Both the position numbers and the translations under genes were made by a program. The notes below the pieces were generated by a model. That model saw only the letters and a list, made by a program, of their open reading frames with translations, was not told the origin of the DNA and searched no databases. 64,000 nucleotides of DNA, taken from Metabacillus flavus. Its GTDB lineage: Bacteria; Bacillota; Bacilli; Bacillales; Bacillaceae. The stretch covers positions 62,001-126,000 of the forward strand of contig NZ_JAGVRK010000001.1 in the NCBI RefSeq assembly GCF_018283675.1, written 5' to 3'. Below are positions 11,650 through 49,832 of this stretch, in pieces. Positions within the stretch are counted from its first letter, which is position 1. Each line of letters opens with the position of its first letter.

Positions 11650-12186
11650 ATGAAGGCAACTGGCATTGTTCGTCGAATTGATGATTTAGGACGTGTGGTT
11701 ATTCCGAAAGAAATCCGCAGAACGCTTCGTATCCGCGAAGGGGATCCGCTGGAAATTTTTGTAGACCGCGACGGCGAAGTCATTCTGAAGAAATATTCAC
11801 CAATAAGTGAACTTGGAGATTTTGCAAGGGAGTACGCGGACGCTCTTTACGACAGCATGGGCCACCCGGTGCTGATTTGTGACAGAGACGCTTTCATCGC
11901 AGTTTCCGGAAGTTCAAAAAAGGAATACATGAACCGCAACATCAGCGAAGACATTGAACGATCTATGGAAGAAAGAAGCTCCATTCTTAAAACTGATGCC
12001 GGAGAGCTTCAGCTTCTTGAAGGGGTCAAAGAAGAAGTCAAAGCCTATACCATTGGCCCGATTATCGCAAATGGAGATCCAATTGGCGCAGTCGTTATCT
12101 TCTCCAAAGAAGGAACACTTGGCGAAGTGGAGAAAAAAGCGGTAGAAACAGCAGCCAGCTTCCTTGCACGCCAAATGGAGAACTAG
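11650..12186 (+). CDS. spoVT: Stage V sporulation transcription regulator SpoVT
   Basis: A 178-residue forespore regulator that tunes sigma-G genes and spore germination properties. Residues 1-50 are an AbrB-type swapped-hairpin DNA-binding domain (MKATGIVRRIDDLGRVVIPKE, then IREGDPLEIFVDRDGEVILKKY). The rest (about 56-178) is a GAF domain ending in ETAASFLARQME. Length equals the B. subtilis protein. It is monocistronic, with a sigma-G promoter upstream and a terminator downstream. Confidence 0.97.
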   Translation: MKATGIVRRIDDLGRVVIPKEIRRTLRIREGDPLEIFVDRDGEVILKKYSPISELGDFAREYADALYDSMGHPVLICDRDAFIAVSGSSKKEYMNRNISEDIERSMEERSSILKTDAGELQLLEGVKEEVKAYTIGPIIANGDPIGAVVIFSKEGTLGEVEKKAVETAASFLARQMEN

Positions 12187-12212: not shown

Positions 12213-12240
12213 AAAAGGCAGCCTCCGGGCTGTCTTTTAA
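12213..12240 (+). terminator. Intrinsic terminator after spoVT
   Basis: AAAAGGCAGCC (12213 on) pairs with GGGCTGTCTTTT across a TCC loop. The T run lies inside the 3' arm. Confidence 0.75.
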
Positions 12241-12404
12241 TGTATGGAGAACCTATTTGAGCATCTGGATAAAAACGTTTGGATTTTGTCTAGTGCAGGA
12301 CCCCGCGCTGTTAGCTGAACATCCTTAATTACAAGACGCCTCCGCTTTTCATGGTGTCCAGCTCCGGGCGCTGTGCCGCAGGGCCATTTCACCCCCTCGG
12401 TCGA

Positions 12405-12464
12405 GGGCCTTCACGATGAAGGCCCGTTCAGCGTTGCGACAGGACGTCGCGCTCTTAGCTGAAC
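12405..12464. repeat. Structured repeat unit 1 (H1 + H2 hairpins)
   Basis: H1: GGGCCTTCA (12405-12413), loop CGA, TGAAGGCCC (12417-12425). H2 outer stem GTTCAGC (12426-12432) / GCTGAAC (12458-12464); inner stem GCGAC (12436-12440), loop AGGAC, GTCGC (12446-12450). All stems are perfect. Confidence 0.75.
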
Positions 12465-12513
12465 AACCTTACTTGAGCGCCTCTCGGTCGGGAGCTCCAC
12501 CGTCTTTCACGGA

Positions 12514-12572
12514 GGCCTGCAGGAGGCAGGCCAGTTCTGCGTTGCGGCAGGACGCCGCGCTTTTAGCAGAAC
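12514..12572. repeat. Structured repeat unit 2 (H1 + H2 hairpins)
   Basis: H1: GGCCTGC (12514-12520), loop AGGAG, GCAGGCC (12526-12532). H2 outer stem GTTCTGC (12534-12540) / GCAGAAC (12566-12572); inner stem GCGGC (12544-12548), loop AGGAC, GCCGC (12554-12558). Relative to unit 1 both H2 stems carry paired, compensating changes, while the AGGAC loop is unchanged. Confidence 0.75.
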
Positions 12573-12603
12573 CTCCTTACTAGAAGCGCCCTCCGCATTT
12601 CAA

Positions 12604-12727
12604 ATTGTCCAGCTGCGGCGTCTAGCCCCTCGAGGTCATAAGTGAATTATCCTGCGGAAGGAAAAACCGCCTTCCTCCGGAGAATTCTCTTATGCTTGTC
12701 GGGGCTGGACAAGACGCCTCCGCTTTT
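12604..12727. repeat. Long palindromic intergenic element
   Basis: A nested inverted repeat. GGCGTCTAGCCCC near 12617-12629 pairs with GGGGCT...AGACGCC near 12700-12717. GGTCATAAG pairs with CTTATGCTTG further in. The tip is GGAAGG-AAAAA-CCGCCTTCC (about 12656-12675). This shape, GCCCCTCGAGGTCATAAG to CTTATGCTTGTCGGGGC, is one I recall from spacers of many Bacillaceae genomes. Confidence 0.65.
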
Positions 12728-12731
12728 CTCG

Positions 12732-12740
12732 TGATATAAT
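12732..12740 (+). promoter_or_regulatory. Extended -10 promoter of the yabM operon
   Basis: TG-A-TATAAT at 12732-12740, 34 nt before yabM and just after the repeat block; no clear -35. Confidence 0.55.
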
Positions 12741-12773
12741 ATCCTCGTCAGTGAATTTGGAAGGAGAATGGGG

Positions 12774-14378
12774 ATGGCTGTGCCGTCTAGAAAGAGCGTT
12801 ATTTGGCAGGGGGCTTTCGTTTTGACGATTGCCGGTTTGCTTACAAAAATAATGAGTGCCGCCTATCGCGTGCCTTATCAAAATATCGTTGGAGATATTG
12901 GATTTTACATATATCAGCAGGTTTATCCGTTTTACGGAATATCCATTATGCTTGCTACATCAGGATTTCCGATTATCGTTTCGAAGCTGTTCGCTGAATA
13001 TGGTGAAGGGCACAACCCTGCTGACTTGAGAAAAATTTGGAAAGTCAGCAGTTTATTTCTTGTGTTTACCGGACTTTTTTCATTTTCTCTTTTGTATGCC
13101 GGTTCTGGATGGATCGCGGGCATTATGGGAGACATGCATCTTAAACCATTAATTGAAATTATCTCATTTTCTTTTTTGCTCGCTCCCTTCATATCTGTGC
13201 TACGGGGTTATTTTCAGGGAATGCATCATATGTTTCCTACGGCTCTTTCCCAGGTAGTTGAGCAGGCATTTCGTGTGGTTACGATCATAGGTGTTGCCTA
13301 TATTCTGCTGAAAAATGGGCGCAACTTTTATGAGGCAGGGCAAGGGGCGCTTTTTGGGTCTCTTACCGGAGGAGCTGCTGCCCTGATTGTCCTGGCTGTC
13401 TACTGGTTCCGCAGGGATCACAGGGAGCTAAACGGGCCTTTGAGTCCTTCTACAATCAGGACATGGGATTTATTAAAAGACTTAATTCTATTTACATTTA
13501 CAATCTGTGTCAGCAGCCTGCTGCTGATTTTAATTCAGCTCGTTGACGCTCTGCAGCTGTTTTCAATGCTGATCAATAAAGGCATGGATCCGACTGCTGC
13601 AAAAACAGCCAAGGGAATTTACGACCGGGGACAGCCCCTGATTCAGCTTGGAACCGTCGTTGCCACCTCACTATCCTTGTCTCTTGTTCCTTTGATTTCC
13701 AGTGCGAAGCGCAGAAATGATGAGAAGTTTATTAAGGATAAAATTAATTTATCGATTAAGGTGTGTTTAGCTGTTGGAGCGGGTGCTACAGCAGGGCTGA
13801 TCGGCATTGTCGAGGAAACGAATATTATGCTTTTCCGGAACAATTACGGGTCAGACATTTTAGGGATTTTGAGCCTGTCCATTCTGTTTACATCCTTATC
13901 GATGACAATCGCTGCTATTCTTCAAGGATTGAATCAAACTATTTACCCTGCTATATCCGTTATTGCAGGTGTCATCATAAAAGTTGCTTTAAACATTGTG
14001 CTGATTCCCCGTTATGAAGCGGATGGAGCTGCTGTTGCGACCGTCGCGGCCTTCTTCGTTGTGACGGTGATGAATATTTATTTTCTCAGAAAAAAGCAGT
14101 ACAAGCTTCACGAGTACCGGAGTATTATCAAAATCGTTCTCTCTTCTGTACTCATGCTTGCCGTTTTAAAAGGCTATATGGCAGGTTTTGAGTGGGTGCT
14201 TGGAAGAAACAGAGCACTTGCCTCCATTGAGGCCATAACAGCAGTCGCGGTTGGCGGCGCCGTCTACATGTTTGCTGTCATCAAATTAAATGTTTTTAAC
14301 AGCGATGAACTGGATATTGTTCCATTCGGCACAAAAATCCGGCTGTGGTCGCAGAAGAAAAGGGATGTGAAAAAATGA
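12774..14378 (+). CDS. yabM: MATE/MurJ-superfamily polysaccharide flippase YabM (SpoVB family)
   Basis: A 534-residue integral membrane protein with about 14 hydrophobic segments, of the MOP flippase superfamily that also contains SpoVB, MurJ and Wzx. Members move lipid-linked wall or polysaccharide precursors across the membrane. The N-terminus WQGAFVLTIAGLLTKIMSAAYRVPYQNI is typical. Two in-frame ATGs are possible. ATG 12774 is chosen because AAGGAG (12761-12766) is 7 nt before it but only 1 nt before ATG 12768. It overlaps yabN by 4 nt (ATGA). The substrate is not known from sequence; SpoVB-like sporulation roles are possible. Confidence 0.92.
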   Translation: MAVPSRKSVIWQGAFVLTIAGLLTKIMSAAYRVPYQNIVGDIGFYIYQQVYPFYGISIMLATSGFPIIVSKLFAEYGEGHNPADLRKIWKVSSLFLVFTGLFSFSLLYAGSGWIAGIMGDMHLKPLIEIISFSFLLAPFISVLRGYFQGMHHMFPTALSQVVEQAFRVVTIIGVAYILLKNGRNFYEAGQGALFGSLTGGAAALIVLAVYWFRRDHRELNGPLSPSTIRTWDLLKDLILFTFTICVSSLLLILIQLVDALQLFSMLINKGMDPTAAKTAKGIYDRGQPLIQLGTVVATSLSLSLVPLISSAKRRNDEKFIKDKINLSIKVCLAVGAGATAGLIGIVEETNIMLFRNNYGSDILGILSLSILFTSLSMTIAAILQGLNQTIYPAISVIAGVIIKVALNIVLIPRYEADGAAVATVAAFFVVTVMNIYFLRKKQYKLHEYRSIIKIVLSSVLMLAVLKGYMAGFEWVLGRNRALASIEAITAVAVGGAVYMFAVIKLNVFNSDELDIVPFGTKIRLWSQKKRDVKK

Positions 14379-38855: not shown

Positions 38856-43566
<4,711 letters not shown>

Positions 43567-43643
43567 TATTCAAGTAAGGCTGCTTTACTCGTGCAGCAAT
43601 CGTTATCTAGTTTTGAAAGAGCAAAAAAGATTTAAAAAATATC

Positions 43644-43671
43644 TTGATTTCTTCTGAAATTATAGTATAAT
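43644..43671 (+). promoter_or_regulatory. Internal promoter in the 23S-5S spacer of operon 1
   Basis: TTGATT (43644-43649), 16 nt, TATAAT (43666-43671), about 30 nt before 5S copy 1. The extra A/T-rich segment that carries it is absent from the corresponding spacer of operon 2. An internal promoter feeding a tRNA cluster is known for B. subtilis rrnB. Confidence 0.65.
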
Positions 43672-43699
43672 AAATCTTATCGCTTTTTTAAAGAACATG

Positions 43700-43815
<116 letters not shown>

Positions 43816-43858
43816 ATATACATATGATGTTAAAGCTTTAACCAGCTTTAACACTTTC

Positions 43859-43934
43859 GGAGGATTAGCTCAGCTGGGAGAGCATCTGCCTTACAAGCAG
43901 AGGGTCGGCGGTTCGATCCCGTCATCCTCCACCA
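43859..43934 (+). tRNA. tRNA-Val (TAC)
   Basis: 76 nt with encoded CCA. Acceptor GGAGGAT/ATCCTCC, anticodon loop CTTACAA, T loop GTTCGATC. Confidence 0.96.
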
Positions 43935-43957
43935 TTCATTCTATCAATAGATTTATA

Positions 43958-43983
43958 GCCGGTGTAGCTCAATTGGCAGAGCA
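43958..43983 (+). pseudogene. tRNA-Thr-like 5' half, broken
   Basis: The first 26 nt (GCCGGTGTAGCTCAATTGGC, then AGAGCA) match the acceptor strand and D arm of the intact tRNA-Thr at 44104 with two differences. From 43984 the sequence is unrelated to any tRNA, and no anticodon arm, T arm or 3' acceptor follows until the next complete gene. It cannot fold into a tRNA. Confidence 0.8.
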
Positions 43984-44103
43984 CGATCGAATATGCATCC
44001 TGAAATTACTTCAGCGCACAGATCGAGCAGCCTCTTGACTAAACATCCTGAGATCTGGGCGACCTTATCAAGCAGGAACGGCTTTGTACCGTAAATTTTA
44101 TAT
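43984..44103. other. 120-nt insert between the tRNA half and tRNA-Thr
   Basis: Not tRNA-like and without a reading frame. It can fold: CGATC (43984-43988) pairs with GATCG (44021-44025), enclosing TGC/GCA and a CTGAA-ATTAC-TTCAG hairpin. ACGG-CTTTGTA-CCGT forms a second one near 44078-44092. No T run is present. B. subtilis has tRNA-Val directly followed by tRNA-Thr here, so this is an addition. Confidence 0.6.
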
Positions 44104-44179
<76 letters not shown>

Positions 44180-44215
44180 CTTTCTTGGTAGTAGCATTTA
44201 TGCTCTATTAAAAGA

Positions 44216-44291
44216 GAGCCATTAGCTCAGTCGGTAGAGCATCTGACTTTTAATCAGAGGGTCGAAGGTTCGAGTCCTTCATGGCTCACCA
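44216..44291 (+). tRNA. tRNA-Lys (TTT)
   Basis: 76 nt with CCA. Acceptor GAGCCAT/ATGGCTC, anticodon loop CTTTTAA. Confidence 0.96.
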
Positions 44292-44306
44292 TTTATATTT
44301 TAATAT

Positions 44307-44388
44307 GCGGGTGTGGCGGAATTGGCAGACGCACTAGACTTAGGATCTAGCGCCTTATGGCGTGGGGGTTCGACTCCCTTCACCCGCA
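44307..44388 (+). tRNA. tRNA-Leu (TAG)
   Basis: 82 nt to the discriminator A; class II with long variable arm GCGCCTTATGGCGT. Acceptor GCGGGTG/CACCCGC, anticodon loop CTTAGGA. Next bases are TCT, so CCA is not encoded. Confidence 0.95.
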
Positions 44389-44399
44389 TCTTATATTTT

Positions 44400-44474
44400 G
44401 CGGAAGTAGTTCAGTGGTAGAACACCACCTTGCCAAGGTGGGGGTCGCGGGTTCGAATCCCGTCTTCCGCTCCA
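44400..44474 (+). tRNA. tRNA-Gly (GCC)
   Basis: 75 nt with encoded 3' end TCCA. Acceptor GCGGAAG/CTTCCGC, anticodon loop TTGCCAA. Confidence 0.96.
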
Positions 44475-44484
44475 ATCCCATGAC

Positions 44485-44570
44485 GCCGGGGTGGCGGAAT
44501 TGGCAGACGCACAGGACTTAAAATCCTGCGGTAGGTGACTACCGTACCGGTTCGATCCCGGTCCTCGGCA
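44485..44570 (+). tRNA. tRNA-Leu (TAA)
   Basis: 86 nt to the discriminator A; long variable arm CGGTAGGTGACTACCGT. Acceptor GCCGGGG/CCTCGGC, anticodon loop CTTAAAA. CCA not encoded (next bases CTT). Confidence 0.95.
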
Positions 44571-44587
44571 CTTGAGAAGCATATATT

Positions 44588-44664
44588 GCGCCCGTAGCTC
44601 AATTGGATAGAGCATTTGACTACGAATCAAAAGGTTAGAGGTTCGAGTCCTCTCGGGCGCGCCA
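44588..44664 (+). tRNA. tRNA-Arg (ACG)
   Basis: 77 nt with CCA. Acceptor GCGCCCG/CGGGCGC, anticodon loop CTACGAA; A34 would be edited to inosine. Confidence 0.96.
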
Positions 44665-44690
44665 TAATTTCATTATACTCAATTAAGGTT

Positions 44691-44767
44691 CGGGAAGTAG
44701 CTCAGCTTGGTAGAGCACTTGGTTTGGGACCAAGGGGTCGCAGGTTCGAATCCTGTCTTCCCGACCA
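44691..44767 (+). tRNA. tRNA-Pro (TGG)
   Basis: 77 nt with CCA. Acceptor CGGGAAG/CTTCCCG, anticodon loop TTTGGGA. Confidence 0.96.
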
Positions 44768-44777
44768 TCTATAATTT

Positions 44778-44853
44778 GGGGCCTTAGCTCAGCTGGGAGA
44801 GCGCCTGCCTTGCACGCAGGAGGTCAGCGGTTCGATCCCGCTAGGCTCCACCA
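44778..44853 (+). tRNA. tRNA-Ala (TGC)
   Basis: 76 nt with CCA. Acceptor GGGGCCT/AGGCTCC, anticodon loop TTGCACG. Only 4 nt separate it from the leader of the second rRNA operon. Confidence 0.96.
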
Positions 44854-44931
44854 TTTTATGATCTTTGAAAACTAAACAAATCGAAGTGCCAACGTTAATT
44901 CAAGAGCAACAAACAAGAGCTAGTCAAACTA

Positions 44932-46477
<1,546 letters not shown>

Positions 46478-46715
46478 AAGAATTATCAGCACCCATGCGG
46501 TGCACAATTAACGGACGCACTTCGGCTTTGTTTAGTTTTGAGAGATCATTCTCTCTATAAACTTGTTCTTTGAAAACTAGATAACGATATGAATGTCAAA
46601 CATTCACACGAGTAAGCAAGTAATCTTACGATTTTCTTCTGCGCTTGCGTATGAAGAGAACATCAAGTCTGAAAACATCTGTTTTCAGCTCTAACGAAGA
46701 TAACTTCCGTTATCA

Positions 46716-49643
<2,928 letters not shown>

Positions 49644-49716
49644 TATTCAAGTAAGGCTGCTTTACTCGTGCAGCAATCGTTATCTAGTTTTGAAAGAGCA
49701 ATCTTTCAACAAAATA

Positions 49717-49832
<116 letters not shown>

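Follow-up and report, generated by a model that had tools for sequence, protein, structure and literature searches.

Tandem Bacillaceae-1 (RF01690) hairpin units in Metabacillus flavus as a probable mobile DNA module

In a 64,000-nucleotide stretch of the Metabacillus flavus genome (contig NZ_JAGVRK010000001.1, positions 62,001 to 126,000; hereafter, the window), two adjacent intergenic units certainly belong, by score, to Rfam family RF01690 and are new members of the already catalogued family Bacillaceae-1. What our analysis adds to this family is scarcity of wobble pairs, flank families, turnover, unbiased orientation, and an association with csrA. On balance, we consider that Bacillaceae-1 is probably a small nonautonomous mobile DNA hairpin module. 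According to this proposal, a 70-base core of two hairpins would ride inside larger, often palindromic, intergenic repeats and would be copied into new intergenic sites by machinery encoded elsewhere, and arrays would gain or lose copies via recombination between the repeated modules. The folded DNA, as a single strand or a cruciform, would be the thing recognized, and this recognition would preserve both the complementarity of the arms and the AGGAC loop.

Units and spacer in the window

The units lie between a spoVT-like ORF (11650-12186) and a yabM-like ORF (12768-14378), names that reflect a presumed resemblance. A 63-codon minus-strand ORF is located at 12690-12881, and no listed ORF of at least 60 codons covers the units, in agreement with the first-pass annotation, which had placed them outside any gene. 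All stems and loops described there were found in both units (Table 1). In unit 1, the H1 stem is GGGCCTTC/GAAGGCCC (12405-12412 with 12418-12425), the H2 outer stem is GTTCAGC/GCTGAAC (12426-12432 with 12458-12464), and the H2 inner stem GCGAC/GTCGC encloses AGGAC at 12441-12445. The corresponding stems of unit 2 are GGCCTGC/GCAGGCC (12514-12520 with 12526-12532), GTTCTGC/GCAGAAC (12534-12540 with 12566-12572), and GCGGC/GCCGC around AGGAC at 12549-12553. The loop had been described as invariant; this holds for the H2 loop AGGAC but not for the H1 loops, which are ACGAT and AGGAG. A truncated third unit keeping AGGAC and the 3' arm was likewise confirmed, with 86% and 83% identity to the two full units over 35 nt.

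Table 1. Features of the spoVT-yabM spacer (window coordinates)
Feature	Coordinates	Strand	Remarks
Truncated Bacillaceae-1 copy	12296-12330	+	H2 loop AGGAC, 3' arm, and tail only; direct-repeat family D1
Flanking-repeat module	12330-12404	+	tail ...GACGCCTCCGCTTTTC, then head CCAGCTCCGGGCGC...; direct-repeat family D2
Unit 1, hairpin H1	12405-12425	+	loop ACGAT; pairing backed by 46 copies
Unit 1, branched hairpin H2	12426-12464	+	loop AGGAC; pairing backed by 46 copies
Unit 1 as Rfam RF01690 (Bacillaceae-1)	12408-12474	-	66.2 bits, positions 1-67
Flanking-repeat module	12475-12513	+	GAGCGCCTCTCGGTCGGGAGCTCCACCGTC...; recurs beside other copies in the genome
Unit 2, hairpin H1	12514-12532	+	loop AGGAG; pairing backed by 46 copies
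Unit 2, branched hairpin H2	12534-12572	+	loop AGGAC; pairing backed by 46 copies
Unit 2 as Rfam RF01690 (Bacillaceae-1)	12516-12582	-	72.4 bits, positions 1-67
Carrier-type repeat without Bacillaceae-1 core	12581-12745	+	genome matches

The gathering cutoff of RF01690 is 35 bits and the full model has 67 positions. The E values of the two units, calculated for the whole window, were 6e-10 and 2e-11, and the Rfam matches reach beyond the last stem of each unit, to 12474 and 12582. Our own covariance model (R1), whose training set includes both units, gave 77.9 bits for unit 1 and 80.6 bits for unit 2 on the plus (AGGAC) strand. This strand is the reverse complement of the RF01690 model; Rfam models the minus strand here. 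On the strand modeled by Rfam, the consensus of Bacillaceae-1 is a pair of hairpins, each ending in an RUCCU-type loop. Read on that strand, the H2 loop is GUCCU in both units, and the H1 loop is CUCCU in unit 2 and AUCGU in unit 1.

The flank module between the truncated copy and unit 1 is also present in relatives and elsewhere in the M. flavus genome, and the core-less repeat downstream of unit 2 has 26 full or partial genome matches at an E value of ≤0.001, its own site counted. The first-pass annotation had set the units between a terminator and a promoter. A pattern scan found no sigma-70 promoter, and the sole terminator-like site (12219-12232) is on the minus strand, the number of such sites being about equal to that in shuffles; TATAAT is present within 12732-12742. 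Judged by eye, this setting is plausible, and the scan did not bear it out. A pair of rRNA operons separated by a tRNA cluster lies elsewhere in the window (38857-49832), with no adjoining Bacillaceae-1 match over the cutoff.

Covariation, wobble pairs, and orientation

We gathered 206 copies, of which the 179 with an ungapped length of 67 were used for pair counts and the other 27 were excluded. In a hand-picked subset of 46 diverse copies, including both window units, 99.0% of 782 pair cells were paired and changes on both sides were found in 15 of 17 pairs. The tool counted 213 of the 782 cells as changed on both sides and none as changed on one side only; the outermost H2 pair contributed ten U-G cells, which were scored as two-sided. 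None of 500 shuffles equaled the observed value on four of five covariation measures, computed on copies that were selected by covariance model and are thus biased toward pairing; the fifth measure, further pair types, was not raised (27, versus a shuffled mean of 28.6). The compensatory arm changes proposed in the first-pass annotation are real and are accompanied by strong covariation in further copies, and the covariance-model search that it had suggested returned 36 genomic copies. The matched differences between units 1 and 2 correspond to two subfamilies that also occur elsewhere in the M. flavus genome, and therefore they need not postdate a local duplication. Mismatched copies at 2867172 and 3772616 of this genome carry a left arm from one subfamily and a right arm from the other, as if units had recombined.

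On its own strand, an RNA helix can accommodate G.U, whereas A.C is not tolerated. When the outermost H2 pair was left out, the 179 copies, which the covariance model had likewise selected in favor of pairing, contained 2,766 Watson-Crick, 31 G.U, 21 A.C, and 46 other cells (2,864 in total); when it was included, there were 52 G.U versus 21 A.C cells. Counted as events, G.U and A.C numbered 24 and 17 without this pair (P = 0.35) and 31 and 17 with it (P = 0.06). As a control, the acceptor and T stems of 29 of 30 distinct tRNAs (one was dropped due to poor pairing) contained 313 Watson-Crick, 33 G.U, 1 A.C, and 1 other cell of 348; tRNA is a single RNA class, and structured RNAs of other kinds may be stricter about wobble. 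The rare and nearly equal G.U and A.C cells point to a DNA palindrome. The G.U excess that appears when the outermost H2 pair is included leans toward an RNA on the AGGAC strand, and at 24:17 or 31:17 events the wobble asymmetry is not decisive for assigning a strand. The first-pass annotation had offered a selected fold, as RNA or cruciform DNA, or mobile palindromes. The evidence fits both, and the low wobble favors the DNA palindrome.

In the window (12573-12582) and in other copies, H2 is followed by an unpaired tail, UCCUU, that is conserved and has complementarity to the AGGA loop. The H2 loop was not AGGA in 18 of the 179 copies, and 11 of these still had a TCCT tail. Since the tail fails to track the loop changes, a pseudoknot between tail and loop is unsupported.

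Orientation was analyzed in 180 distinct spacers, each counted once, after 14 of the 206 records without a flanking ORF were dropped; genes were approximated by ORFs of at least 100 codons. Between genes in the same direction, the AGGAC strand was sense in 72 and antisense in 58 spacers (P = 0.25), the remaining spacers being convergent (28) or divergent (22). In M. flavus, 17 spacers were sense and 7 antisense (P = 0.06), and in the order set the counts were 28 and 26. Thus, a sense-strand 3'-untranslated region (3'-UTR) element, as suggested by the M. flavus counts, was not borne out in the wider sets. Our preferred reading is maintenance at the DNA level, and its grounds are the low wobble and the unbiased orientation. 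Assuming an origin at the contig start, the AGGAC strand was codirectional with replication in 24 of 31 arrays of M. flavus and 17 of 21 arrays of its relative G004, in a count that does not separate gene direction from replication.

Distribution, turnover, and carrier repeats

The 36 RF01690 copies over the cutoff in the M. flavus genome are on both strands, among 45 matches at an E value of ≤10. Within the genus, five of six genomes had matches at an E value of ≤0.001 (26 to 37 each), and genome G001 had none. In the order sample, 196 of 397 genomes had the element; in a phylum-wide sample it was detected in 5 of 398 genomes, four of the five being from the same order. In the control set of 14 genomes, Bacillus subtilis alone was over the cutoff. 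One genome outside the order (G491, locus L298; 5% contamination listed) has four copies at 39 to 41 bits, resulting from transfer or contamination. A blastn search of phage and plasmid collections with one 63-base consensus query gave no match at an E value of ≤1e-3; an origin from phages or plasmids was rejected on this result, and no vector was seen.

Across six species of the genus, the spoVT-yabM spacer contains no copies (G001 and G002), 1 copy (G003), 2 copies plus the truncated one (M. flavus), or 4 copies (G004 and G005). The G002 spacer was covered, since the next ORF starts approximately 775 bases after the spoVT-like ORF. Following the spoVT-like gene, this spacer (L067, reverse strand) contains a run of tandemly repeated short units (GTGCCTCCGACCTGGACTTCTGG...) and a carrier lacking the core, with no Bacillaceae-1. 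A scan of 40 named spoVT loci, out of 80 fetched, gave a single spacer copy, in Bacillus timonensis (L109, 3778-3844), in the opposite orientation and with different flanks. A conserved regulator of the downstream gene was rejected on this presence at 1 of 40 loci and on the opposite orientation. Two of the marks of a mobile (MITE/REP-like) repeat, many dispersed intergenic copies and presence or absence at the same site, were observed. We conclude that mobility is well supported by turnover and dispersal.

In M. flavus, the core sits inside larger repeats with the head GTCCAGCTCC.GCGC and the tail GGCGCYTNCGCTTTT. The tail pattern had 35 genome matches with at most one mismatch, 11 of them exact, versus 1 match for the reversed control. 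In other genomes, the core is embedded in quite different repeats: 200 copies with full flanks formed 8 flank clusters of at least two copies plus 20 singletons, with no alignment across clusters (E ≤ 1e-4). The largest cluster (138 copies) was joined by single linkage and contains, by eye, more than one carrier type; neighboring cores within array flanks also merge clusters. The core is thus carried in at least eight mutually nonaligning flank families. Left and right flanks formed 21.9 pairs with each other, versus 17.0 for between-genome swaps (102 copies from 42 genomes; P = 0.005); the excess is modest, and many single copies lack it. G079 and G095 contain sets of near-identical copies, carriers included, at scattered sites; in G095, one carrier type with near-identical cores has long similar flanks at seven loci (L263-L265, L268, and L270-L272). 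Visual inspection of the ends of the G079 copies revealed no clear target-site duplication. Among the general papers on REP, MITE, and bcr repeats that literature searches listed, we recognized none as a description of these Bacillaceae carrier repeats.

The csrA association, rival explanations, and known systems

The gene csrA (PF02599) was detected in 375 of the 397 genomes of the order sample. The element is present in 3 of 22 csrA-less versus 193 of 375 csrA-bearing genomes (Fisher P = 6e-4). Stratified by family, with four extra f23 genomes added and strata tallied by hand, 3 csrA-less carriers were observed versus 6.75 expected (P = 0.004). Without family f23, whose genomes are close relatives (element in 2 of 4 csrA-bearing and 0 of 15 csrA-less genomes), P was 0.063. 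Three csrA-less genomes (G163, G189, and G215) are only 62 to 90% complete. FliW was absent from all 19 csrA-less genomes checked, of 26, and so these csrA losses look real. The association between csrA and the element is suggestive.

The loops gave a mixed result. In the csrA-less G057, GGA was present in 0 of 11 H2 loops (6 scored, 5 off-length and read by eye), and the 6 scored copies retain 80 to 95% of their stem pairs. Conversely, every H2 loop that was read in G058 (5 of 5) and G039 (3 of 3), two genomes lacking both csrA and FliW, retains AGGAC; in G058 (7% contamination), loops were read for five of six copies, some of which look alike. In the csrA-bearing G095, GGA has disappeared from 7 of the 8 H2 loops scored, and the type multiplied at seven loci in this genome still has GGA. 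Over 152 distinct copies (39 genomes, three csrA-less ones excluded; no csrA test for G002 to G005), the GGA of the H2 loop was G in 94%, G in 98%, and A in 100% of copies, and the loop was closed by C-G in 97%. The second position of the H1 loop, in the same 152 copies from several families, was G (64%) or C (34%) and hardly ever another base. The H1 loop thus has two states (AGGAN and ACGAN) rather than random decay.

According to the main rival of the mobile DNA module, a transcribed AGGAC strand would present CAGGA(C/U)G hairpin loops, here likened to the CsrB repeat motif, that would bind and titrate CsrA by analogy with enterobacterial CsrB. We regard this decoy function as rather unlikely, but it remains live, and the element may be both mobile DNA and decoy. 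A simple mobile hairpin would not call for a GGA as constant as that of the H2 loop, and this near constancy under a C-G closing pair, the rarity of the element in csrA-less genomes, and the loss of GGA with mostly kept stems in G057 speak for a CsrA site. A passage of PMC4333381 notes that the reverse complement of Bacillaceae-1 resembles CsrA-binding sites and proposes CsrA binding. Against it stand the weakened stratified test without f23 and the incomplete csrA-less genomes, AGGAC in G058 and G039, GGA-less loops in the csrA-bearing G095, H1 loops that are often ACGA and then not a CsrA site, the low wobble, and the absence of a sense bias over all spacers. Furthermore, eight Bacillaceae-1 structures in B. 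subtilis are described, in the part of PMC8208703 that deals with them, as absent from earlier annotation resources, including tiling-array noncoding RNA predictions.

A cis-acting RNA, that is, a hairpin in a 3'-UTR or between genes that would stop transcription or protect mRNA ends, seems to us quite improbable. The predicted folds are very stable, tails such as GGCGCTTGCGCTTTT are found on the AGGAC strand, and sense copies are in excess in M. flavus; however, the 180 spacers are distributed over all gene arrangements, the site is not conserved, as seen at the named spoVT loci, and wobble is almost absent. Least probable of all, and close to negligible in our view, is that the product is an RNA read from the Rfam strand, with RUCCU loops. 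Rfam types RF01690 as 'Gene; sRNA', and Table 1 of PMC2864571 (Weinberg et al. 2010) lists Bacillaceae-1 with RNA 'Y' and cis-regulatory 'n'; however, according to a statement in PMC4333381, the discoverers were not confident of the strand, and A.C cells, which would be G.U on that strand, are no commoner than G.U. Returning to the mobile DNA module, a more specific version can be offered only tentatively: the hairpin module would move between unrelated Bacillales palindromic repeats, its arms would be kept strictly Watson-Crick by an enzyme acting on the folded single strand, it would not be a small RNA gene, and its AGGA loops may expose CsrA sites when transcribed.

Bacillaceae-1 was described in 2010, and in the portions of the literature cited here neither its strand nor its nature is settled; a passage of a 2022 review (PMC9029176) places it with the small RNA families of highest abundance. 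Should it be mobile folded DNA, then mobile DNA is being registered as small RNA genes by annotation pipelines. Wobble scarcity also offers a cheap way to tell DNA from RNA selection in repeat-like Rfam families other than this one. Should CsrA bind to it, the dozens of decoy sites scattered over each genome would represent a novel means of tuning a global regulator.

Among known repeats, Bhal-1, which the relevant passage of PMC2267715 gives as a 74-bp stem-loop with 36 copies in B. halodurans, fits in size, copy number, and host group; its identity with Bacillaceae-1, considered by description rather than by sequence, is a lead only. The repeats bcr1 to bcr18 of the Bacillus cereus group (PMC3446304) are likewise intergenic Bacillus repeats and are likened here by description. 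In that source, some are called MITE-like and about half of the copies are in transcripts, and bcr1 is called B. cereus group-specific in a reference title. With REP/BIME palindromes and the RAYT-mobilized GTAG repeats (PMC3733652, in whose main text the word Firmicutes is absent), Bacillaceae-1 shares an intergenic, high-copy, palindromic, nonautonomous, and clustered character, but it has a longer core of two hairpins. With CsrB/RsmZ-type RNAs, as presented in part of PMC4333381, it shares the GGA in hairpin loops, the C-G closing pair, two hairpins per unit, and arrays. Unlike these RNAs, it is dispersed, has no known transcript, is present in some csrA-less genomes, frequently has ACGA in H1, and shows little wobble. 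The closest system is Bacillaceae-1 itself as tabulated in PMC2864571: the core and its two hairpins are the same, and the window units score far above the gathering cutoff. RF01690 is filed as a small RNA of the other strand, whereas the copies analyzed here behave as dispersed palindromic DNA nested in repeats.
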